From Spirochaeta thermophila DSM 6192 (lineage in GTDB: Bacteria > Spirochaetota > Spirochaetia > Winmispirales > Winmispiraceae): 64,000 bases of DNA. Location of the stretch: NCBI RefSeq assembly GCF_000147075.1, contig NC_014484.1, forward strand, positions 2,373,501 through 2,437,500. Direction: 5' to 3'. Below, piece after piece: positions 4,066-51,675 of this stretch. The translations under genes and the position numbers were made by a program. The notes beneath the pieces are model-generated. The model was not told the origin of the DNA. It did not search any database and was given only the letters and a program-made list of their open reading frames with translations. Position 1 is the first letter of the stretch. The number at the start of each line of letters is the position of its first letter.

Positions 4066-5423
4066 GAGGGACTGCGCTCCTCCACCATCTTGAGGATCTT
4101 CTCGTAGAACTCCCTCGTGATGGGGTAGAAGAGGAAGACGAGCACCCCGACCACGAAGAGGACCGCGGGGAGGGGGCCCACAAGGAGCGAGATCCCGAGA
4201 AGGGCCTCGGGCGGCTGGACCTGGGGCACGCCCTCGGCGGAAGGCGGCACGTAGTGGAAGAGCGAGAGGATCCACCCCGAGAGGGCGAGGGCGAGCGCCT
4301 GTCCCACCTTGCTCATGAAGGTCCACATGCCGTAGAAGAGCCCCTCCCGCCGGATGCCGTTCTTGGCGTAGTCGTACTCCACGATGTCGGGGAGCACGGC
4401 GTAGGGGATCACGTACTGGGTGGAAAACCCGAAACCTCCGAGCACGATGAAGACGTATGCGGCAGGAAGCCCCAGGCTCCTCCCCAGAAACACGAATGCG
4501 AGAACCGCGCCTGCGAAGACGAGCATCCCGGTGTTCCAGGCGAACCGCTTGCCGGCCCGCTTCGACACCCAGACCCAGAAGGGCACGGAGAGGAGGGCCG
4601 TGAGGAGGAGGACGAAGAGCGTGATCTGGAAGGCGGAGGTGTCCCCCACGAGATAGGTGAAGTAGTACACGAGGGCGCTCTGGATGATGGTGACCCCCAT
4701 GATGTGCAGCGTCCACGTGGCGAGGGCGAGGCGAAAACTCCGTAAGGAGAGGACCCCTGCATAGGCACGCAGGATCTGCACCTGGGGCGGTCTCTGGCGG
4801 GGAGGCGACTCCCTCACCGTGAAGACCGTCACGAACGCCGAGAGGAGCATGATGAGTCCCAACACCCCACCCATGAACGGCCAGCCCACCCGGTAGTCGG
4901 AGAAGAGCCCCACCAGGGGAAGGACGAGGAGGGCCCCGGAGAAGGTACCCAGTATGGCGAAGACGTTCCGGTAGGCATTGAGCACGGTACGTTCGTGATA
5001 GTCCACCGTGAGTTCCGGGGCGAGGGCGCTGTAGGGGATGTTCACCATGGTGTACGCCGTGCTGAGGACGCAGAAGAGTACGCTGTACCAGAGGAACGTG
5101 AGGACGTCGCTCGAGAAGCGGAGGGGGAAGAACATGATGATCATGAAGACGAAGAGGAAGAGGGCGCCGTAGAGCATGTAGGGTCTGCGGCGTCCCATGG
5201 GAGAGACCGTCCTGTCCGAGAGGTACCCCACTATGGGATCGGAGACCGCATCCCAGGCCTTCCCGATGAGGAGGGCCGTACCTGCGAGGGCAGGGGAAAG
5301 CTTCACCACATCGGTGAGATAGTAGAGGAGGAAGAACCCCACCATGGTGAAGAAGAGATTGCCGCCGAGATCGCAGACCCCGTACCCCAGCTTCGTCGTC
5401 CGTGAAAGTCCCCGCTGCATCAT
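4056..5423 (-). CDS. MFS transporter of the GPH (MelB-like) sugar:cation symporter family
   Basis: 455 residues with about 12 hydrophobic segments in two six-helix halves. The N-terminal KLGYGVCDLGGNLFF, followed near residue 55 by DAVSDPIVGYLSDRT and GRRRPYML, is diagnostic of the glycoside-pentoside-hexuronide symporters (MelB, XynP, YicJ). In that family the Asp residues of helix II coordinate the coupling cation. The substrate is probably a glycoside or oligosaccharide, but no glycosidase gene is adjacent to narrow it. The ATG pair at 5423/5420 has no Shine-Dalgarno and a promoter -10 ends 6 nt before it. Its 3' end overlaps the convergent J-domain gene. Confidence 0.88.
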   Translation of the reverse strand: MMQRGLSRTTKLGYGVCDLGGNLFFTMVGFFLLYYLTDVVKLSPALAGTALLIGKAWDAVSDPIVGYLSDRTVSPMGRRRPYMLYGALFLFVFMIIMFFPLRFSSDVLTFLWYSVLFCVLSTAYTMVNIPYSALAPELTVDYHERTVLNAYRNVFAILGTFSGALLVLPLVGLFSDYRVGWPFMGGVLGLIMLLSAFVTVFTVRESPPRQRPPQVQILRAYAGVLSLRSFRLALATWTLHIMGVTIIQSALVYYFTYLVGDTSAFQITLFVLLLTALLSVPFWVWVSKRAGKRFAWNTGMLVFAGAVLAFVFLGRSLGLPAAYVFIVLGGFGFSTQYVIPYAVLPDIVEYDYAKNGIRREGLFYGMWTFMSKVGQALALALSGWILSLFHYVPPSAEGVPQVQPPEALLGISLLVGPLPAVLFVVGVLVFLFYPITREFYEKILKMVEERSPSHM

Positions 5424-5429
5424 GTCTAC

Positions 5430-5458
5430 ACTATACCTCAGCCTGCGCCGGAGTGCAA
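5430..5458 (-). promoter_or_regulatory. Putative promoter of the MFS gene, possibly leaderless
   Basis: Minus strand: TTGCAC (5453-5458), 17-nt spacer, TATAGT (5430-5435), then 6 nt to ATG 5423. Transcription would start at or next to the A of the ATG. Confidence 0.45.
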
Positions 5459-5522
5459 TCAGTATTCGACCGACGGCCGACGAATTCGTACCGATCCCCT
5501 CCCTGCTTCCCTTGACGGCCGG

Positions 5523-5561
5523 GTTGACTTTTAGTAGTATAATTACCGACTAGACGTCAAC
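5523..5561 (+). promoter_or_regulatory. Promoter/operator of the efflux operon: inverted repeat centred on TATAAT
   Basis: Perfect TATAAT at 5538-5543. It sits in the middle of an imperfect inverted repeat: GTTGACTTTTAGT (5523-5535) and ACTAGACGTCAAC (5549-5561) match at 11 of 13 positions. The possible -35 TTGACG (5512-5517) has a long 20-nt spacer. The dyad is the obvious autoregulatory site for the TetR-type regulator that starts at 5584. Confidence 0.5.
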
Positions 5562-5583
5562 AAAACCACAGAGAGTACACGGG

Positions 5584-6861
5584 ATGACCTGTGAGGACAT
5601 CATACGGGCCGCCCTCAGGGGATGGGCCAAGAACCGTTTCCAGCGTCTCACGCTCATCAGCGTGGCCGAGGAACTGGGGGTGACCAAACAGGCCCTCTAC
5701 CGATACTTTCCTTCAAAGGAATCCCTCATGGACGGTATCCTCGAATATGCGAGGGCGGTCAACCTCACGCTGGTGGAGGACCTGAACAGGATCTCCTCTC
5801 TCCCCTTCCACGAAGGGCTTTCCTTCCACCTCTCCCGCCTCCTCCTCGATTTCAAGAGGCATGCCGACCTTTATCTCTTCCTCTATCCCCCCCAGAAGGT
5901 CCTCTTCCGGGATCGATTCAAGGCCTTCTACCGTGAGGTGGAGGAGCACGGCCTCACCATCACCCGAACCCTCTTCTCCCGACCGGGTGCGCCCGATATC
6001 CCCGAGCGTCTCCTCCCCGCCGTGCACTCGTTCATCGGCACCACCTTCCTCTTCCTCCTCCTCAAGGACATGCCGAGGCCCCAAGAAGATCCGCGGGAAT
6101 CCTTCACGACCTTCCTCTCCAACCTGGACCTGGAGAAGAAGGTGAGGGCCGTCACGGAGGTGATCGTGCATGGAACCGTGAGAGGTTCCTTCGCCCTGCC
6201 CGATGTCGAACGAGTGCGGACGATCGCCCGGGTGGAGGAATCCGAGGTCCCCCACTTCGACCGGATCCTCTCCGCCGCCGAAAAGGTGATACACGAAAAG
6301 GGGATCGCCAATACCACCTTGGACGACATCGCCCACGAGATCGGGGTGACGAGGGCGACCCTCTACTCCTACTTCAAGAACAAGCGCGATCTCGTGGTGT
6401 CCACCATACTGAGACAGATCACCGGGTTCTTCGATCCCCTCTTTCCGAGGCTTGCGGTGTGCACCTCGATCGAGGAAAAGGTCCTGTGCTACATCCTCTA
6501 TGCGGCCGAGTATTCCCATGTCCACAAGCGGCTCTTCTCCGTCACCAACTGGCTCAGGATCAACTCCCCCCTCCGACCCCTCAGGGACGCGCGGGCGTGG
6601 GAGCAGATCGGCCGCTATCTCGAACGCTTCGCCCTCCTCTTCTCCCCCCTCCCCCTCAGGGAGGGGCTGAGGCCCGCGGAGATGCTCCCTTTCCTCCACG
6701 TCCTCACCGGCTCCCTCATGCAGGAGGAACCCCTCATACGCCCCTCGGAGGCCCTCCTCGTCTGGGCGTACTTCCTCGAAGGGCTCAGGGGAATCGAACG
6801 TCATGCGGAGCAGATTTCCGCACACGAGAAAGACACCGACCACGAACGGAGGTTACCATGA
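5584..6861 (+). CDS. Tandem-fused TetR-family regulator (two DNA-binding domains)
   Basis: 425 residues, twice the normal TetR length. It contains two complete TetR_N helix-turn-helix modules. Near residues 20-55 is LISVAEELGVTKQALYRYFP followed by SKESLMDGI. Near residues 224-275 is LDDIAHEIGVTRATLYSYFK followed by NKRDLVVSTI. Each is followed by a helical ligand-binding-type segment, so the protein looks like two regulators joined head to tail. It is the first gene of an operon with an RND efflux system and almost certainly represses it by analogy with AcrR. The stop overlaps the ATG of the TolC-like gene (ATGA). No strong ribosome-binding site precedes its ATG. A frameshift merging two genes is unlikely because the frame is open throughout. 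Confidence 0.88.
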   Translation: MTCEDIIRAALRGWAKNRFQRLTLISVAEELGVTKQALYRYFPSKESLMDGILEYARAVNLTLVEDLNRISSLPFHEGLSFHLSRLLLDFKRHADLYLFLYPPQKVLFRDRFKAFYREVEEHGLTITRTLFSRPGAPDIPERLLPAVHSFIGTTFLFLLLKDMPRPQEDPRESFTTFLSNLDLEKKVRAVTEVIVHGTVRGSFALPDVERVRTIARVEESEVPHFDRILSAAEKVIHEKGIANTTLDDIAHEIGVTRATLYSYFKNKRDLVVSTILRQITGFFDPLFPRLAVCTSIEEKVLCYILYAAEYSHVHKRLFSVTNWLRINSPLRPLRDARAWEQIGRYLERFALLFSPLPLREGLRPAEMLPFLHVLTGSLMQEEPLIRPSEALLVWAYFLEGLRGIERHAEQISAHEKDTDHERRLP

Positions 6862-12789: not shown

Positions 12790-14903
12790 ATGCATGGTCA
12801 CGAGAGGAGACCCGAGATACTCGCCCCCGCGGGGAGCTTCGCCGCGGGAATCCATGCGCTCGAGGCAGGGGTGGATGCCCTCTACGTGGGGCTGCCGCGT
12901 TTCTCGGCCCGGGCCTTCGCGAGGAACGTGGACATGGATGGGCTCTCGCGACTCCTCGGGGCTGCGAGGGTGCGGGGGGCACGGGTCTACGTGGCCCTCA
13001 ACACCCTGCTCATGGACGAGGAACTCCCCGAGGTGTGCCGCATCCTCGAGGTGCTCTCACTCATGGGGATAGACGGGCTCATCGTACAGGATCTCGGGCT
13101 CATCCGGATCGTGCGTGAGCGGTTCCCCCGGCTCGAGCTCCACGCATCCACCCAGATGGGGATCCACAACCCGGATGGGGCGCGGGTCCTGCGGGATCTG
13201 GGGGCGCGGCGGGTGATACTCGCACGGGAGCTGGAGCTTAGGGAGATCGCCCGGATCGTGGAGGAGGTGCCCGAGCTGGAGTACGAGGTGTTCGTGCACG
13301 GGGCGATGTGCTACAGCGTCTCGGGGATGTGCCTGGCCTCGGGGCTGCTCCTGGGACGGTCGGGGAACAGGGGGGTGTGCGCCCAGGTGTGCAGGACGTG
13401 GCAGGAGGGGCCGAGGGGCGAGGGGTACTACTTCTCCATGCGGGATCTCGCCCTGGGGGAGCGGGTGAGGGAGCTGGTAAGGGTGGGGGTGCGGGCGCTC
13501 AAGATAGAGGGGAGGATGAAGTCCCCTGCGTACGTCCGCGCGGTGGTCGGGTGGTATCGCGCCCTGCTCGAGGGGAGGGGGGCGGAGGGGATGGAGGAGG
13601 AGGTGCGGGCGGCGTTCGCACGGCCGTGGTGCGGGGGGCACCTGGAGGGGCACGAGGGGTTGGTGGAGGAGGGGTACGCGGGGCACGTGGGGGTGGAGGC
13701 GGGACGGGTGGTGGGGGCGGGTGAGGGGTGGGTGGAGGTGGCGCTGGAGCGGGAGGTGGGGGTGCGGGACGGGGTGGGGGTGCTGCTGGAGGGGAGAGGG
13801 GTGAGGAAGGAAGGGGTGTGGTGGGGGGTGGAGCGCCTGGAGGTGGGAGGGCGTGCCCGCACGACGGCCCGGGCAGGCGAGCGCGCCCGCATCCCGGCCC
13901 CCCGCCCCGTCCCGCCGGGCACCCCCCTTCTCCTCGCGAGCCGCCACGACGCCACCCTCCCCGAACCCTCCCCCGCCTCCTTCCCCCCTTCCCCCCTCCA
14001 CATCCCCCTCACCCTCCACCTCACCCCCACCACCCTCACCCTCACCGCCCGACTCCCCCTCCGCACCCTCACCCGCACCTACCCCATCACCCTCTCCCCC
14101 GCCCACACCCCCCACACCACCCTCACCCTCCTCCGCACCCTCCTCGCCTCCTACGCACCCCCCACCGCACCCCCTTCACCACCGACCTCACCCTCACCCC
14201 CGACCCCAACCTCACCCTCCCCCTCTCTCACATCTTCATCCCCGCCTCCGAGCTCAAAGCCATCCGCAGGGACTTCTTCTCCGCACTGGAAGACCTCCTC
14301 ACACAGCCCGTCTCCCTCCCCCTCGATCCACCCACCCTCCCCACCCCTCCCCTCCGTCACACCCTCTCCCCCCAAGGCCCCCTCCCCTTCCCCACACGCC
14401 TCACCACCCTCACCCCCTCCATGCTCCCCACCCTCACCCTCCCCTCCCTTCCCCATCCCCTCACCGTCCTCCCCCTCCCCCCCACCACCTTCTCCGACCA
14501 GGAAGGACTCCCCGAACTCCTCGACCTCATCGACCGGCACCCGGACACCAGATTTCTCATCGGCCTCAACAACCCCGCCCACATCCTCTGGGCCCGCACC
14601 CTCCACGAACACCACCCCGACCGCACCTTCTTCTTCGTCGACTACCTCCTCTACTGCGCGAACCGGGCCGCCCTCACCCTCCTCGCCGCCCACATCCCCT
14701 CCCTCCTCTTCGCCTACCCATGGATCGAAAACCCGCGCCACCGCTCCCTCTACCACGACTTCACCCCACCCATCTTCATCTCCCGGGTCCGCCACAGCCC
14801 CCCCTCCATGACCCTCACCCAGAACCACCGCACCCTCACCCTCCTCCACAAAGACGGCATCACCTACACCGTCGCACGCCCCCTCTGGGAGACCACCCCA
14901 TGA
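12790..14903 (+). CDS. U32 family peptidase, interrupted by an apparent -1 frameshift
   Basis: The first part (12790 to about 14157) begins RRPEILAPAGSFAAGIHALE and carries the U32 signature near residues 165-185 (EVFVHGAMCYSVSGMC, then GVCAQVCR). The family includes collagenase-like YegQ and the RNA-hydroxylating RlhA/TrhP proteins. The C-terminal part is in the frame one base earlier: HRTPFTTDL, IFIPASELKAIRRDFF, TRFLIGLNNPAHILWA and FFVDYLLYCANRA. It ends at 14903, overlapping the next ATG. The frames meet at a run of six C (14158-14163). This suggests a one-base loss in a homopolymer (mutation or sequencing error) or slippage; joined, the protein would be about 704 residues. The frame-1 continuation to 14811 is Ser/Pro nonsense. 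Strand composition also inverts near 13860. AGGGGG precedes ATG 12790. Confidence 0.8.
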
Positions 14904-25436: not shown

Positions 25437-25465
25437 TTGCCCCAGGGGACACTCTTTGCTAGAGT
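25437..25465 (+). promoter_or_regulatory. Putative apbE promoter, possibly leaderless
   Basis: TTGCCC (25437-25442), 17-nt spacer, TAGAGT (25460-25465), then 7 nt to ATG 25473. No Shine-Dalgarno. Confidence 0.4.
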
Positions 25466-25472
25466 GGGCCGC

Positions 25473-26483
25473 ATGAAACGAGCCATTGCCCTCCCCTTCG
25501 CCGTCCTCCTCCTCCTTTCGTGTCGGCAGGGAGAACCTCTCACGAGGACCGATTTCGCCCTCGGCACCGTCTGCTCGGTGAGGATCTTCGACCACAAGGA
25601 CGAGGAGATCCTCGATGAGGCCTTCTCCCTCCTCTCCTCCATCGAAGCCACCTTTTCACCCTCCATAGAGGGGAGTGATATCTGGAAGGTCAATCACGGA
25701 GGAGGAAGGCCCACCACGGTGTCACCGGAGACCGCCGCCGTACTCTCACGGGCCCTCGACTATGCTCGCACCTCTGGGGGGGCCTTCGATCCCGCGATAG
25801 GAGCCCTGGTGAACTTGTGGGGCATCGGTACCGACCGGGCACGTATCCCTTCGCCGGAGGAAATCGAGCACGCCCTCGGCACCATCGACTACCACCTCGT
25901 CTCACTCGAGGGAGACACGGTCGTAGTCGAGAACCCCGAGACCAGGCTCGACCTCGGGGCCATCGTGAAGGGGTATGCGAGCGATGAGCTCGCCTCGCTC
26001 TTCACGACAAGGGGAGTGCGGTCGGCCATCGTGGACCTCGGAGGGAACATTTTCGCGCTGGGGAGCCGGCCCGACGGCACACCCTGGAGGATAGGGATCC
26101 AGGATCCGGAAGGTCCGAAAGGAAGCTACGTGGGGATCCTCAGGGTGAGGGACAAGGCGGTGGTCACCTCCGGTGTCTATGAACGGTTCTTCATACAGGA
26201 CGGCATCCGCTACCACCACCTCCTCGATCCTGCGACCGGCTACCCTGCGAGGACGGGACTCCTGAGTGTCACCGTGATCCACCCCCGAGGCATCGACGCC
26301 GATGCCCTTTCCACCACACTCTTCGTCCTCGGGATGGAAAGGGGCCATACCTATCTGCGCGAACGACATCCTGAGGCCGAAGCCCTCTTCATAGGAGAGG
26401 ATCACACCATATGGATGACCCCAGGACTCGAAGGGACCTTCACCCTCACCGCCGAGACCTACTCGCTCGAGAGACTTCCCTAA
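25473..26483 (+). CDS. apbE: FAD:protein FMN transferase, lipoprotein
   Basis: 336 residues from ATG 25473 (an in-frame TTG at 25437 is part of the promoter). The lipobox LLLLSCRQ predicts a periplasmic lipoprotein, as for other ApbE proteins. Family motifs are GTVCSVRIFD, GAFDPAIGALVNLWGIG, DLGAIVKGYASDELA, SAIVDLGGNIFALGSRP and the metal-binding HHLLDPATGYPA. ApbE attaches FMN to Thr/Ser of Rnf, Nqr and other redox subunits outside the cytoplasm. No Rnf or Nqr gene is in the window. The convergent neighbour is a NusG-domain-II protein, a family I recall seeing near apbE in other genomes. Confidence 0.94.
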   Translation: MKRAIALPFAVLLLLSCRQGEPLTRTDFALGTVCSVRIFDHKDEEILDEAFSLLSSIEATFSPSIEGSDIWKVNHGGGRPTTVSPETAAVLSRALDYARTSGGAFDPAIGALVNLWGIGTDRARIPSPEEIEHALGTIDYHLVSLEGDTVVVENPETRLDLGAIVKGYASDELASLFTTRGVRSAIVDLGGNIFALGSRPDGTPWRIGIQDPEGPKGSYVGILRVRDKAVVTSGVYERFFIQDGIRYHHLLDPATGYPARTGLLSVTVIHPRGIDADALSTTLFVLGMERGHTYLRERHPEAEALFIGEDHTIWMTPGLEGTFTLTAETYSLERLP

Positions 26484-26854
26484 AAGGTGGTCCCGTCCAC
26501 CGGGGAAGAGCCCTTCCTCCCCTCCACCATGACGAATATCCGGTTGGGAAGACAGGCGATCCACTGCCCCGGCGAGGATATCCTCCCCATGGCAATACAG
26601 AGCTTGTCGGGACACGGCGCCTCTTCCATCCACACCGCCCCGTTCCGGATGATCACCTTCTCAGGTCCGAGAGGACCTTCCACCTCCAGGGTCCTGTCCT
26701 CGTCGAGAGGATAGAGGAAGACTCCCCCCTCGCTTTCCACCCGCACCACGAGAGGCCCCATCGGACGGGTATAGGCCGCAGCGAGCACACCTGTGAGTGC
26801 GAAGAGGGCGAGCACGATGATCACCCAGTCACCGATTCCCATGGATCTACGCAT
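26480..26854 (-). CDS. NusG domain II (DUF1312) membrane-anchored protein
   Basis: 124 residues from ATG 26854 (GGGGGTG upstream; an earlier in-frame ATG lacks such a site). One N-terminal membrane helix (DWVIIVLALFALTGVLAAAY) precedes an extracytoplasmic beta domain. There V-R-V-E-S-E-G-G and CPDKLCIAMGRISSPG and IACLPNRIFVMVEG match the NusG-domain-II family. The paired cysteines (CPDKLC...C) could bind a metal or form a disulfide. Its role is unknown. Its start overlaps the upstream ATPase gene by 8 bases, so it is the third gene of an Mre11-ATPase-NusGII operon. It overlaps the end of apbE by 4 bases. Confidence 0.78.
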   Translation of the reverse strand: MRRSMGIGDWVIIVLALFALTGVLAAAYTRPMGPLVVRVESEGGVFLYPLDEDRTLEVEGPLGPEKVIIRNGAVWMEEAPCPDKLCIAMGRISSPGQWIACLPNRIFVMVEGRKGSSPVDGTTF

Positions 26855-28997
26855 GATCACCCCCGAGATCGTGGATCCGTGCATCCGGGAATTCCTCTCT
26901 CACCACCGAAACCACATCGGGGAAGCTCGTGAAGAGGCAGATCTGCCATCCCTTGTCCACCAGACGATGGAGCGCCCGAACCGCACCCCGTCTCCGAGAA
27001 GGGTCCAGGGACTCGAAGGCCTCGTCGAGCACGATCACCCCCGGTGTCTCAGAGAGTTCGGCCATGGCGAGCCGACAACCGAGATAGAAGGCCCCCATGG
27101 TCCCCTTTGAGAGCTGAGGCAACTCCCTCGGTATTCCCTGGGCGTCCATGGCCCGGATCCCCTTCAGAGAGAGCGTGTCGAGCATCACCTCCCGTTCCCC
27201 TCCCCCGGTGATCATCTCGTAGTAGGGTCTCACCCTGGAAACGAGGCCGGCGAAGTCCTTCGCCATCCGCTCACGAAGACGGGAAAACACCTCCGTGAGA
27301 AGGGCATAGGCGGATTTCTCGGCCTCCAGACGGGAGAGCTCTCGGAAGAGACGTTCCCGCTCCCCCCTCAGACGGAAGAGCTCTTCCATGGCCTCACTGT
27401 AGTTCCCCATCCGCCCCTTGAGCCTCGCCACCTCTTCGAGGACATGCTCGTACTCACGATCGAGCCCCTCTCGAACCTTCCGGAGATCTTCCCGTTCGTT
27501 CCTGAGGACGATCCGCTCCTCCTCCGTGAGCTCCTCCCCCCGGAGCCTGAGCCTACAGCCATCCCTCTCCATGGCGATGTACCGTTCCAAGTCCACCAGG
27601 GAGGTCTTTCCGCTCCGCTCCATCGCCCTCCTCACCCAGCCCTCCTCGGCCTCCAGACTACGCACCACCTCCCGATACCGCGCCACCTCTGCGCCGTACT
27701 CCTCCCAGGTGCGAGCCCCCACCCGCCCCAGCCACTCCCGCAACCGCCGGCCGGCCTCCTCCTCCCTCCTCCGCGCCTCCACCCACGCCCTCTCCACCCC
27801 CTCCACCTCCTCACCCAGCCGTCGCACCTCCTCCCTCCACACCTCCCACTCACGGCGCACCCCCTCTCCCTCGGCCCTCCACCGTGCCCAGGCCTCCCTC
27901 AACCTCCCCTCACCCACCACCCGCCGCACCATCCCCGTACCCCGCACCCGCCACACCAACCCCACCACCATCCCCCCGAGCCCCGCCACCGCCAGCCCCA
28001 CCCCCGCACCCACCCATCCCGGCCATCCTGCCATCCCCACCCCCACACACACCCCCACTCCCCCCGCCAGCATCATCCACACCCCCCTCCGGCGCCATCC
28101 CTCCCCCATCACCAACACCCTCTCCTTCTCCTCGCGCCCCCTCACCCTCTCCTCCACCCCCGCCAACGCCTCCTCGGCCCTGCGGAGATCCAGCTTTCGG
28201 AGCTCCACCTCCTCACCCAGCCGTCGCACCTCCTCCCTGCACGCATCCCACTCACGCCGCAAGGCCTCCCCCTCCTGCCGGACACCCTCACCACACACCA
28301 CCCTCAACCGTCCCACCTCCTCCTCGATCTCCCTCACCCGCCGCACCCTCTCCCACGCCTGTTCCAGCTCCCTCAACCGGCGCCACTCCTCCTGCTCCTG
28401 AATCCGCCGATCCAGCTCCCGTTCCCGCTCCTCCACCCCGCGCCGCTCCCGCTCAAGCGCCCCAAGCCGCTCCTCCATACGCCGAAGCTCCCCCCACACC
28501 ACCTCCCTCCCCGAAAGCCGCTCCTCCCACCTCCGGATCTGCGCATCCACCTCGGCGAGTCGCGCCCTCACCTCCCTCCGTTCCCTCATCTGCACCGTCT
28601 CGCGCCCCACCTCCCTCCCCGCCTTCTCCACCTCCAAGATCAACCGTTCCAGGTTCACTCCCCCTGCGAACAGCTGCTCCTGGACGAACTGGGCCGCCCC
28701 CCGCTGACTCGAGAAATCCACCTCCACCCTGCCGGAACGAATCGCATACACCTCGGAGAACAGAGACGCGGGAACATGCCACTCCTCTCCCACCCACTCC
28801 CCCTCCACCCTCCGCTCCCCCGCCCTCCCATAGCGGTCGAGATCCTTCCTCCCCGAGGCGATGAGATCGTAGAGCGCATCGCACACCGTGGACTTCCCCG
28901 CCTCGTTGGGCCCGTGGAACACCGTCACCGGCCCCAGCTCGAACCGTACCTCCGAGAACTTTCCGAACCCGATCAGCCTTATCCCCCTGAGCCTCAT
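26847..28997 (-). CDS. YhaN-like SMC/Rad50-type ATPase with central membrane helices
   Basis: 716 residues. Walker A GPNEAGKST (residues ~29-37) lies at the N-terminus, as in RecF, SbcC and RecN proteins. Long charged coiled coils follow (~120-300 and ~365-560). The signature-like LSKGTMGAFYLGCRLAMAEL and Walker B VIVLDEAFESLDPSRRR are at the C-terminus. Two Gly/Val-rich hydrophobic segments at about 308-352 interrupt the coils, as I recall for Bacillus YhaN. The head domains therefore remain cytosolic while the hinge is at the membrane. The ATG overlaps the stop of the Mre11-like nuclease gene, the usual Rad50/Mre11 pairing. The coding strand is extremely G-rich (codons GTG, GAG, AGG). Confidence 0.85.
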   Translation of the reverse strand: MRLRGIRLIGFGKFSEVRFELGPVTVFHGPNEAGKSTVCDALYDLIASGRKDLDRYGRAGERRVEGEWVGEEWHVPASLFSEVYAIRSGRVEVDFSSQRGAAQFVQEQLFAGGVNLERLILEVEKAGREVGRETVQMRERREVRARLAEVDAQIRRWEERLSGREVVWGELRRMEERLGALERERRGVEERERELDRRIQEQEEWRRLRELEQAWERVRRVREIEEEVGRLRVVCGEGVRQEGEALRREWDACREEVRRLGEEVELRKLDLRRAEEALAGVEERVRGREEKERVLVMGEGWRRRGVWMMLAGGVGVCVGVGMAGWPGWVGAGVGLAVAGLGGMVVGLVWRVRGTGMVRRVVGEGRLREAWARWRAEGEGVRREWEVWREEVRRLGEEVEGVERAWVEARRREEEAGRRLREWLGRVGARTWEEYGAEVARYREVVRSLEAEEGWVRRAMERSGKTSLVDLERYIAMERDGCRLRLRGEELTEEERIVLRNEREDLRKVREGLDREYEHVLEEVARLKGRMGNYSEAMEELFRLRGERERLFRELSRLEAEKSAYALLTEVFSRLRERMAKDFAGLVSRVRPYYEMITGGGEREVMLDTLSLKGIRAMDAQGIPRELPQLSKGTMGAFYLGCRLAMAELSETPGVIVLDEAFESLDPSRRRGAVRALHRLVDKGWQICLFTSFPDVVSVVREEFPDARIHDLGGDHA

Positions 28998-30040
28998 CGC
29001 TCGATCTCCTCTCGTATCCGCAGAAGCCCGAGGCGGAGGGCGTCCCTCCAGACCCGCTCCTCACACCCGCCTCGGGACCGCTCCATCTCCTCCAGGAACA
29101 TCTGTACGAACCGATGGGAGGAGAGAACCCTCAAGGCCGCCACCTCCTCCTCGAAAGTGATCGTACGCACCCTGTCGCCATATCTCTCGAGGAGCCCCCG
29201 CTTCCAGGACTCCACCCGATCCAACCCATCCACCACCCCCCGGAGCACCACATGCACCCGATCGTACGGCCCCACACCGTCCCAGAACCCCTCCTCTTCC
29301 TCAACCCGCTCCACGCCGAAGACCACCTCCGTGACCCGAAACCGCCCCGCCCGATCCAGCGCCACAGGCTCCACCCGCACCCCCCCCTCGTCCGCCTCGA
29401 CCACGAGCACCCTCCGAGGCCCCTCTTCCCCCTCCCTCCACACCCGCGCCGACCCCGCATACCTGAACACCACATCGCCGAACCGCACCTCACAGTCCCG
29501 GTGGATATGCCCCAGCGCCACATAGTCAGGCTCGAAATCCCTCAGGAACACCGGATCGAGGATCGCAGGATCCTCCTCGCTCGAGAACCAGAAGGCATCC
29601 TGGACCGTACCGTGGGCCATCACCACCCTCACCCCCCTCTTCCGTGCGAGCCCTCCATTCCCCTCGTACCCCTCCCGCCGGTAAGGCACCCCCACCACCT
29701 CGTATCCCTCCCCCTCCCATACCCCCACTCCATCGAACGACCAGAAGAGCCCCTCGGGCGTAGAGAACTCCGAGAACTCGTGTGCACCTTTCTTGAGAAA
29801 CTCATGGTTCCCCACACAGTAGTAGACCGGCACACCCACCCCGCACAACCTCCTCCAGACCTCACCCCAGAGGGCCGCCATATCCTCGAAGGAATCGAAG
29901 AGATCACCCGGCACCACGACGAAATCCACACCCGCATCCTTCGCCACCTCGGCCACCTCATCCACCACCTCCAGACAGTACTCGCGCTCCCTGAGGGCCA
30001 CGTGCACATCCGCCGCATGAAGAAACCTCACCCGTGCCAT
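28994..30040 (-). CDS. Mre11/SbcD/YhaO-like metallophosphoesterase nuclease
   Basis: 348 residues from ATG 30040; an in-frame TTG six bases upstream is less likely because a -10-like element ends there. Calcineurin-like metal motifs appear in order: FLHAADVH (D-x-H), VVVPGDLFDS (GDLFD), CVGNHEFL (GNHE), MAHGTVQDA and LGHIHRDCEV (GHIH). This is the Mre11/SbcD nuclease layout with a short C-terminal capping domain. Mre11-type proteins resect or open DNA ends with a Rad50-type ATPase, which is encoded next with a 4-base overlap. It is divergent from the ferredoxin gene. Confidence 0.9.
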   Translation of the reverse strand: MARVRFLHAADVHVALREREYCLEVVDEVAEVAKDAGVDFVVVPGDLFDSFEDMAALWGEVWRRLCGVGVPVYYCVGNHEFLKKGAHEFSEFSTPEGLFWSFDGVGVWEGEGYEVVGVPYRREGYEGNGGLARKRGVRVVMAHGTVQDAFWFSSEEDPAILDPVFLRDFEPDYVALGHIHRDCEVRFGDVVFRYAGSARVWREGEEGPRRVLVVEADEGGVRVEPVALDRAGRFRVTEVVFGVERVEEEEGFWDGVGPYDRVHVVLRGVVDGLDRVESWKRGLLERYGDRVRTITFEEEVAALRVLSSHRFVQMFLEEMERSRGGCEERVWRDALRLGLLRIREEIER

Positions 30041-30046
30041 ACCCAA

Positions 30047-30146: not shown

Positions 30147-30317
30147 ATGGCATACGTCATCACCGATGACTGCGTGGCCTGCGGGACCTGCCTTCCCGAA
30201 TGCCCGGTGGAGGCGATCAGCGAAGGGAACCCCTACGTGATCGACCCTGACACGTGCACCGACTGCGGCTCCTGCGCAGAGGTGTGCCCCGCAGAAGCCA
30301 TCCATCCCGGCAACTGA
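30147..30317 (+). CDS. 2[4Fe-4S] bacterial-type ferredoxin
   Basis: 56 residues, typical clostridial-type length. Two cluster motifs are visible: DDCVACGTCLPECPVEAI and DTCTDCGSCAEVCPAEAI, each CxxCxxCxxxCP. It is a low-potential electron carrier for ferredoxin-dependent oxidoreductases or hydrogenase in an anaerobe. The ATG was chosen because AGGAGG lies 6 nt upstream; the longer open frame begins inside the promoter. It is monocistronic, with its own promoter and terminator. Confidence 0.96.
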   Translation: MAYVITDDCVACGTCLPECPVEAISEGNPYVIDPDTCTDCGSCAEVCPAEAIHPGN

Positions 30318-30324
30318 TCCAGGA

Positions 30325-30350
30325 CGCTGCCCCCCCGGGCAGCGTTTTTT
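30325..30350 (+). terminator. Intrinsic terminator of the ferredoxin gene
   Basis: CGCTGCCC (30325-30332), a 4-nt loop, GGGCAGCG (30337-30344), then six T. Confidence 0.92.
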
Positions 30351-30390: not shown

Positions 30391-30391
30391 C

Positions 30392-30475
30392 TGCCCAGAG
30401 GGGGATTTGAACCCCCACGGGTTTACACCCACTAGATCCTGAATCTAGCGCGTCTACCAGTTCCGCCACCTGGGC
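30392..30475 (-). tRNA. tRNA-Leu (anticodon CAG)
   Basis: 84 nt on the minus strand. The acceptor arm GCCCAGG pairs with CTCTGGGC. The D arm contains GGTAGACGC. The anticodon arm CTAGA-TTCAGGA-TCTAG places CAG at 34-36. A long class II variable arm (TGGGTG...ACCCG) and T arm GGGGG-TTCAAAT-CCCCC complete the fold. CCA is not encoded after discriminator A. It reads CUG codons. The terminator follows directly. Confidence 0.95.
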
Positions 30476-30529
30476 ACGCAGCGGATGTTATTATGCGACA
30501 ATCCCGCTCAGGTGTCAATCAGCCCCCTG

Positions 30530-49155: not shown

Positions 49156-51675
49156 ATGTCGGAGCCCACATTGCACATGAAGGCCCAGGAGGAGCGCCTC
49201 AGGAAGGCCCGGAACGCCTACCACCTCGGAGACATCGAGACCGCCTCGAAGCTGGTCCACGAACTCCTCCATGAGGTACCCCTGAGCAGCGGAGTCCACC
49301 TCCTCTCCGGCATGATCGCCCTCCGACAGGATCGCAACGAAGAGGCGAAGGAGGCCTTCACGAAGGCGCTCGAGCTGGGTGGGGAAGAGGCGGAGGCCCT
49401 CAACAATCTTGGCGTCATCTACCGCAAGGAAGGCGACCATCGCAAGGCGATCGAGTATTTCAGAAAGGCCCTCGCCGCGGACCCCGACAGACCGGACATC
49501 CTCTACAACCTCGCCAACGCCTGCAAGGACGCGGGCCTCTTCGAAGAAGCGGAGGCAGCCTATCGGAAGGCCCTCGAACACGATCCCCATCTGGTCTCGG
49601 CTTACAACAATCTCGCCACCCTCTATCAACAGAGAGGGGCCATCGACAAGGCCGTCGCCGTCCTCGAGAAGGGGCTCACGGCAGATCCCGATCATCCCAC
49701 GCTCCTCTACAACCTTGGCGTCCTCTATCAGAGAGAAGGTCGATACGAAGAGGCCCGTGCATCCTTCCACCGAGCCCTCCAGAAACGACCCGGATGGGTG
49801 GAAGCCCTCAACAACCTGGGCATCGTGGAACAATCGAGGGGGCATCACGAGGCCGCCCTCGCATGCTTCAGGGAAGCACTCACCCTCGACCCGCTCCATG
49901 CAGCGGCGGCCAACAACATGGGAAGCATCCTGGCCCTCCTCGGCCGCTACAAGGAGGCCTTCGACTGGTTCGTACAGGCACTCAGAATCCAACCGGGCTA
50001 TGAGCGCGCACTCCACAACATCCTCCACCTCCTCACCTCACAGGAGGCTTTCTTCGACGTGGAACAGGAACTCTCCCTCCTGCTCCTCGAATTCCCCGGC
50101 CTCGAGCAACTCAGAGTCTCCTATGCAGAGGCCCTCTTCCGCAAAGGAGACTACGACAGGGCCGAAGAGGAACTGCACCTCCTCGAAGAAAAGGGAGCCG
50201 ACGATCCCAGGATACCCCGTCTCCTGGGTATCATCTCCTTCCTCCACGGGAAGGAGGACCGCGCACACACCTATTTCGAGCACTACCGACGGCTCACCCA
50301 CCGGGAGGACTACCTCCTCGACCTCATCAAGACGCTCAAAGATCGCAAGGAATACCGCGCTGCCCTCACCCGCCTCAACGAATACCTCTCCTCACACCCC
50401 GATGATCGCAACGCCCGTCTCCTCCTCGGAGAGATCCATCTCGAACTAGGGAACATCGAAGAAGCCTTTCCCCTGCTGGAGAAGATGAGGGAGGAGACCC
50501 CCTCGGATCCCGACGTGCTCACCGCCTGTGCGAGACTCTACCAGCGAGCCGGACAGAGGGAACGGGCCATCGACCTCATCGACACGCTGGTGGGCATCCA
50601 GGGGAGCAGGGCGACGCCCGAGGACCTCACCGGACTCAACAGGAGCCTCGAACTCTATGAAGAAACGATCCAGTCCTTTGGGGATCACGACAGATCCACA
50701 TGGGAACACAACCTCAGGAAGCTCACCGATCTCGTTCGGTTGAGCGAGACCGAATGGGAGGTCGAGGCCTCTGAAGAGGAAGAAGCCCCCACCCTCCTCG
50801 ACTTCGAGGAAGTGGTCGTGGAGGAGGAACCCGAACCGGAAGAAGAATCCGAAGGACCCGAGGAGGAGAACATCGCTCCCTATGTACACCTCCTCGATGA
50901 GGAAGGCCCCACCCTCCTCGATCTCGCCGACACCTCAGCAGAGCCTTTCCCCGGCACGTCCCCCTCGACCGGATCCTCGAGCAGCCCCGTCCCCCCGCCT
51001 CCACCGCAGCCCCCTCTTTCCCCACCCCTGCACCCCACCCCTACCCAGGCCGTCTCCCCCACCCCCACACCCCCTCCTCCCTCCACAGCCGTCCCGCCTT
51101 CCCCACCCGTCACCCCTCCGCCACCACAGCCCCTTCCTCCGGCACCACCCACCCAGGCACCACCCGCCCAGACACCACCCACCCAGACACCACCCGCCCA
51201 GACACCGCCCACCCAGACACCACCCACCCAGGCACCACCCACCCAGACACCGCCCACCCAGACACCACCCACCCAGGCACCACCCGCCCAGGCACCACCC
51301 ACCCAGGCACCACCCACCCAGGCACCACCCACACCTCCTCCGCCCCCATACACCCCCCCCCTCGCTCCCGCCGCTCCCCCCACCCCGCCCCCGACACCCT
51401 CCGACCACGCCTCCCCCCTCCCTCCCCCCTCCACCCCGTCCCAACCGGAACCCCGCACCCCCTCCGAACCCCCACCCCCCGCTCCACCCTCCGGAGACCC
51501 CACACGCCTCTCCTCACTCATCGCCTACCTCGAGTACCTCGTCTCCTTCCTCCCCCACGACAAGAAGGTGGAGATGGAGTCGCTCTCCTACCGCACCAAG
51601 CTCTCCTGGCTCCGCCAGTCCCTCACCACCTACACGGTCTCCGACCTCTCATCCCCCATCCGCCGATCCACGTAA
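49156..51675 (+). CDS. TPR-repeat protein with Pro-rich PPTQ repeat and conserved tail
   Basis: 839 residues. Roughly ten tetratricopeptide repeats occupy residues 10-500 (e.g. AEALNNLGVIYRKEGDHRKA, PDILYNLANACKDAGLFEEA). An acidic segment follows (about 535-590), then a ~190-residue Pro/Thr/Ser/Gln-rich region with twelve 5-residue repeats PP[TA]Q[AT]. The final ~55 residues form a helical domain (LIAYLEYLVSFLPHDKKVEM). No signal peptide or membrane helix. TPRs scaffold protein complexes; the extended PPTQ arm may act as a spacer. The C-terminal domain resembles tails of FapA- or motility-type scaffolds only loosely, so I name no function. The 3' end overlaps sixA by 27 bases. Confidence 0.85.
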   Translation: MSEPTLHMKAQEERLRKARNAYHLGDIETASKLVHELLHEVPLSSGVHLLSGMIALRQDRNEEAKEAFTKALELGGEEAEALNNLGVIYRKEGDHRKAIEYFRKALAADPDRPDILYNLANACKDAGLFEEAEAAYRKALEHDPHLVSAYNNLATLYQQRGAIDKAVAVLEKGLTADPDHPTLLYNLGVLYQREGRYEEARASFHRALQKRPGWVEALNNLGIVEQSRGHHEAALACFREALTLDPLHAAAANNMGSILALLGRYKEAFDWFVQALRIQPGYERALHNILHLLTSQEAFFDVEQELSLLLLEFPGLEQLRVSYAEALFRKGDYDRAEEELHLLEEKGADDPRIPRLLGIISFLHGKEDRAHTYFEHYRRLTHREDYLLDLIKTLKDRKEYRAALTRLNEYLSSHPDDRNARLLLGEIHLELGNIEEAFPLLEKMREETPSDPDVLTACARLYQRAGQRERAIDLIDTLVGIQGSRATPEDLTGLNRSLELYEETIQSFGDHDRSTWEHNLRKLTDLVRLSETEWEVEASEEEEAPTLLDFEEVVVEEEPEPEEESEGPEEENIAPYVHLLDEEGPTLLDLADTSAEPFPGTSPSTGSSSSPVPPPPPQPPLSPPLHPTPTQAVSPTPTPPPPSTAVPPSPPVTPPPPQPLPPAPPTQAPPAQTPPTQTPPAQTPPTQTPPTQAPPTQTPPTQTPPTQAPPAQAPPTQAPPTQAPPTPPPPPYTPPLAPAAPPTPPPTPSDHASPLPPPSTPSQPEPRTPSEPPPPAPPSGDPTRLSSLIAYLEYLVSFLPHDKKVEMESLSYRTKLSWLRQSLTTYTVSDLSSPIRRST
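51145..51324 (+). repeat. Twelve tandem copies of a 15-bp coding repeat
   Basis: Units follow CCACCCRCCCAGRCA, in frame with the TPR gene, encoding PP[TA]Q[AT]. Copies differ mainly at A/G positions (ACC/GCC, ACA/GCA). Prone to copy-number change by slippage. Confidence 0.95.

Follow-up and report, generated by a model that had tools for sequence, protein, structure and literature searches.

The adjacent yhaN-like and yhaO-like genes in the window, the 64,000-nucleotide stretch of the Spirochaeta thermophila DSM 6192 genome that was analyzed, are likely to encode a complex of the Mre11-Rad50 type that carries a membrane hairpin and does the job of SbcCD, with the adjoining gene specifying a separate flavin protein of the EetA type, here called NusG-II after its domain. 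The genome (G000) is a single contig of 2,472,645 bases. An earlier note on this DNA had described three overlapping minus-strand genes for a nuclease, an ATPase and a NusG-II protein, and this layout was confirmed by the coordinates and by Pfam (Table 1). The overlap between yhaO and yhaN is 4 bp (ATGA), that between yhaN and the NusG-II gene is 8 bp (ATGCGTAG), and apbE, which the earlier note had not listed, converges on the NusG-II gene with a tail-to-tail overlap of 4 bp.

Table 1. Features of the gene block and its surroundings in window coordinates.
Feature	Position	Strand	Basis and remarks
yhaO-like gene, Mre11/SbcD-type metallophosphoesterase nuclease (putative)	28994..30040	minus	Pfam; ATG start, TTG at 30046 possible
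yhaN-like gene, Rad50/SMC-type ABC ATPase with coiled coil	26847..28997	minus	AAA_23 and AAA_27; model
YhaN first hydrophobic helix, about residues 302-323 (predicted)	28029..28094	minus	Hydropathy; model helix 302-319, low confidence
YhaN second hydrophobic helix, about residues 329-353 (predicted)	27939..28013	minus	Hydropathy; model helix 334-353, low confidence
NusG-II protein, 124 aa, one predicted membrane helix, three conserved cysteines	26480..26854	minus	PF07009, 89 bits; neighbourhoods
apbE (FAD:protein FMN transferase)	25437..26483	plus	PF02424, 307.8 bits
tRNA-Leu (CAG)	30391-30476		Upstream of yhaO
Ferredoxin-like reading frame	about 30150-30330		Seen by eye

The coding strand of yhaN is very G-rich. 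In windows of 500 bases the GC skew takes extreme values, about -0.5 to -0.8, at 27400-28900, and also at about 14000-14500 and 51000-51500.

YhaN carries the conserved ABC ATPase motifs and matches AAA_23 (39.9 bits) and AAA_27 (PF13514; 35.7 bits against a cut-off of 22), both above cut-off. A sequence search against solved structures returned Rad50 (E 0.0046), and the best solved matches to the predicted structure were Rad50 and SMC proteins. In the model the two ends of the protein together form the ABC head, and there are long helical arms with two helices between them. These overlap two 19-residue hydrophobic segments, 305-323 (mean 1.75) and 329-347 (mean 1.94). The model places the segments at the apex of the coiled coil, the site of the zinc hook in SbcC/Rad50.

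A profile search of genome contigs with the YhaO alignment gave 30 loci, at least five of them from genomes that are also in the genome samples described below. YhaN was found directly after YhaO at 29 of the 30, while the remaining one (L150) ends inside YhaO. With a threshold of 19 residues and a mean of 1.6, exactly two mid-protein hydrophobic segments were present in YhaN at 26 of these 29 loci, and one in L137, L142 and L146; the recurrence of two segments shows that the hairpin is more than chance. Among the 27 two-segment proteins (the 26 relatives and that of the window), a lysine or arginine precedes the first segment in 27 and follows the second in 25, and the loops between the segments hold at most one such residue. 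No CxxC motif was found in the window YhaN or in the 26 two-segment relatives. Six further YhaO loci from other families had a hairpin YhaN next door in five cases, one of these loci (L217) being the same record as L154. At L216 (genome G146, family f44) a YhaO homologue at 4513-5595 has no YhaN beside it, and a glycosyltransferase-like frame adjoins.

As controls we used eight spirochaete SbcC proteins (L203-L209 and L213), picked because SbcD lies next to them and they carry the P-loop. None of the eight had a hydrophobic segment like those of YhaN, and seven (all but L206) had a CxxC, which is close to mid-protein in the six whose frame is full-length. YhaN is also shorter, with 716 aa compared to frames of 978-1237 aa in seven of the controls; the eighth (L205) is represented by a frame of 723 aa, its gene being read in two pieces. 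The proposal in the earlier note of two membrane helices at the position of the Rad50 zinc hook is thus supported by hydropathy, by conservation at 26 of 29 loci and by the model, from which we infer membrane insertion. YhaN is therefore probably a Rad50-like ATPase with a membrane hairpin. None of the papers listed in a literature search describes such a hairpin for YhaN, and judged by their titles PMC4205851 alone concerns this protein; a description in Krishnamurthy (2010) is possible.

The two helices could instead form a hydrophobic contact at the apex of a soluble YhaN dimer and never enter the membrane. The segments of the window protein show only moderate hydrophobicity and contain much glycine and valine, and confidence in the model is low at the hairpin, both of which would fit such a contact. 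However, most relatives score 2 to 3 on this hydropathy scale, and the charge pattern suits an in-out-in hairpin. A soluble apex is therefore unlikely.

YhaO was found to match Pfam Metallophos (57.4 bits), and in an alignment of 22 proteins D13, H15, D48, N80, H81, H145, H180 and H182 were invariant. These positions correspond to the Mre11 metal-binding motifs DxH, GD, GNH, H and GHxH. The predicted structure (pLDDT 88.2) matched Mre11 and SbcD best, and the sequence search against solved structures gave Mre11 (E 4e-5). No hydrophobic segment was found in YhaO by the hydropathy scan. By its motifs YhaO is a member of the Mre11 nuclease superfamily, and it is predicted to have nuclease activity.

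The window pair thus resembles SbcCD and Mre11-Rad50 in the nuclease and ABC-head folds, the coiled coil and the invariant nuclease motifs. It differs in that a hydrophobic hairpin takes the place of the zinc hook, and in that its proteins fall below the NCBIfam cut-offs for sbcD and Rad50 (YhaO scored 18.7 bits with the SbcD model TIGR00619, the cut-off being 77.65). With SbcE/SbcF (YhaN/YhaO) of Bacillus subtilis it shares an AAA_27-type ATPase encoded beside an Mre11-type nuclease, a likeness that is one of AAA_27 and gene adjacency and not of direct sequence comparison. Unlike SbcE/SbcF, the window locus has no yhaM and the genome has no SbcCD. In B. pumilus, yhaONM is listed as part of the SOS regulon (PMC3896406).

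We compared the distribution of YhaNO with that of SbcCD in two samples of genomes. In the class sample (60 members) a YhaO-YhaN pair was counted only from adjacent strong matches, leaving out weak YhaN matches in three further genomes and weak YhaO matches in five further ones; four of the latter five were SbcD itself by position. SbcD exceeded its family cut-off in 30 genomes and the pair was present in nine, and no SbcD above cut-off was found in any of these nine (Fisher p 0.001). In the phylum sample (197 members of at least 90% completeness) YhaO was found in 45 genomes, SbcD in 79 and both in two, compared to 18 expected. The two genomes with both (G109 and G114) had weaker YhaO scores. 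Family f44 accounts for 25 of the 45 YhaO genomes; when it was left out, YhaO was present in 20, SbcD in 79 and both in two of 172 genomes (p 0.0004), and when only the 11 strong YhaO matches were kept none was shared with SbcD (p 0.0009), all these tests being uncorrected for descent and the sampling uneven by family. Families f40 and f58 hold both proteins, in different genomes. The presence of YhaN beside YhaO was read at the fetched loci and not in all 45 YhaO genomes.

The sole SbcC_Walker_B match in the genome of the window was YhaN. Matches to PF13558 in G014 and G049 (84 bits) were rejected as SbcC, being large ATPases with no CxxC in genomes with no SbcD above cut-off; from their N-terminus we take them to be MukB/JetC-like. 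The rare co-occurrence of YhaO and SbcD suggests that YhaNO probably replaces SbcCD in lineages that lack the latter, including that of the window. Bacillus subtilis matches SbcD and, according to the literature, also has yhaON, so the two systems are not exclusive everywhere.

The NusG-II protein matches Pfam NusG_II at the score given in Table 1 and has one hydrophobic segment (mean 2.39). This agrees with the earlier description of one membrane helix. Its three cysteines were present in 52, 54 and 55 of 55 aligned members and so are a feature of the whole family. PF07009 was found in 53 of the 60 class genomes, and 55 of 58 matches were read in their context, the three left out being the G059 and G045 matches and a second, weak one in G035. 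At 35 of the 55 loci EetB or an ECF-T-like protein is encoded downstream in the same orientation, and ApbE lay within five ORFs in 20. Altogether EetB, ECF-T or ApbE was near NusG-II in 43 loci, and none of them in 12. The ECF-T-like neighbour had no Pfam match and was named by analogy with FmnA. Annotations from other genomes show the same association: the annotated EET cluster of Enterococcus raffinosus contains pplA, an FMN transferase, NusG-II and a Gx transporter, and in Treponema saccharophilum NusG-II occurs with a Gx transporter, and an FMN transferase gene converges on them.

According to PMC9973259, EetB binds FAD as the substrate subunit of an ECF exporter, eetA is beside eetB in 3,328 genomes, and deletion of eetA in Listeria gave no EET phenotype. 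Gene position suggests that EetA is the NusG-II protein; a literature search found no paper on eetA with NusG, nor on NusG domain II with ApbE. The window protein is most likely an EetA-type protein of extracytosolic flavinylation, and would be functionally unrelated to YhaNO. Its locus resembles the EetA/EetB-ApbE module of other spirochaetes and Enterococcus, where NusG-II is beside the Gx transporter (EetB) and ApbE, but in the genome of the window EetB and ECF-T are remote. There, eetB (PF07456) and an ECF-T-like gene lie together at 727845-728273 of the contig (L124), about 1.67 Mb from ApbE and from NusG-II at 2400016, and apbE adjoins NusG-II instead.

The earlier note had read the three genes as one operon. 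Its Rad50-like ATPase, with a probable hairpin, and the paired Mre11-like nuclease stand, but NusG-II does not hold up as a component. Among the nine pair-bearing class genomes NusG-II adjoins YhaN in three, is elsewhere in four and was not detected in two. YhaN was beside NusG-II in only three of the 55 NusG-II loci, all from the order of the window, which is represented by three genomes in the collection, all carrying the block. No NusG-II was found in the examined flanks of the 30 YhaO loci from the contig search. The expected co-occurrence of the three families was thus limited to one order, and at the loci examined outside it NusG-II genes do not neighbour YhaNO, an outcome that the earlier note had named as refuting its reading.

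Within the order, the window was set against an 800-kb part of contig 1 from the distant member G002 and was found to be largely collinear with it in blocks. The order apbE, NusG-II, yhaN, yhaO is kept in G002, with NusG-II abutting yhaN exactly and an inversion left of apbE, and in both genomes the genes after yhaO run from ymdB through pyrG and further. The link between NusG-II and yhaN is therefore part of a general synteny, and since the surrounding order is conserved as a whole, their local linkage is weak evidence for a shared role. Between the window and G002 the identity is 26% for YhaN and 33% for YhaO, compared to 52% for NusG-II and 51% for ApbE; YhaN and YhaO diverge unusually fast relative to most neighbours between the two genera.

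It was suggested that NusG-II is an outward-facing third subunit, coupling an envelope sensor to a nuclease at the membrane and surveying incoming DNA, for defence or uptake. The genes overlap on the same strand in an arrangement kept in all three genomes of the order, and both NusG-II and YhaN have membrane segments. However, no link was seen in the six other pair-bearing class members or at the 30 YhaO loci, NusG-II is usually beside flavin genes, and the whole of the local gene order is conserved. YhaNO also has no recurrent third partner: among the neighbours at 29 loci the most frequent besides YhaO was a methyltransferase-like frame, found at five loci at most. We regard the third subunit as very improbable; in view of the neighbourhoods and the synteny we reject NusG-II as a DNA-processing partner, and no evidence was found for surveillance of incoming DNA by its outside domain.

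An anti-phage role for the YhaNO pair, as a relative of Lamassu, Wadjet or MADS, is highly unlikely, for although the ABC head of YhaN matches PADLOC mad3 (61.5 bits), JetC (56.9) and LmuB (51.2) and its fold matches include Lamassu and JetABC ATPases, those PADLOC matches cover the shared ATPase head, NusG-II and YhaO have no PADLOC match (other neighbours were scanned with Pfam only), YhaN was unmatched in plasmids and YhaO in plasmids and phages, and the neighbours are housekeeping genes whose order is kept in G002. Given the partners and the context, we reject membership of these defence systems. A role of YhaNO in DNA uptake is possible, going by the title of Krishnamurthy (2010).

We thus favour a YhaNO complex in which the YhaO nuclease would sit on the ABC heads of YhaN in the cytosol, and the coiled coil would end in a two-helix membrane hairpin rather than a zinc hook, so that DNA ends, hairpins and protein-blocked ends would be cut near the membrane. 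ATP may drive the nuclease open, as it does in Mre11-Rad50, and the complex would take over from SbcCD the processing of hairpins or blocked ends. NusG-II would be an EetA-type membrane protein of the machinery for FAD export and ApbE flavinylation, left between YhaN and ApbE with EetB and ECF-T elsewhere in the genome. Some observations speak against this explanation: the tight overlap of the three genes and the abutment in G002 would fit a common transcript and a joint function, flavin genes are missing from the vicinity of 12 of the 55 NusG-II loci, and L216 has YhaO and no YhaN.

For the family as a whole, we give an even chance to the wider claim that spirochaetes and some neighbours have a membrane-inserted Mre11-Rad50 with a transmembrane hairpin for the zinc hook, which replaces SbcCD outright and makes DNA-end processing membrane-bound. 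The NusG-II gene serves as a caution that a tight gene overlap need not signal shared function where the whole gene order is conserved. The function of the Rad50 apex is a long-standing question, and a natural family with a hairpin for the zinc hook, used instead of SbcCD, would allow the apex to be probed for a role in tethering, dimerisation or location.
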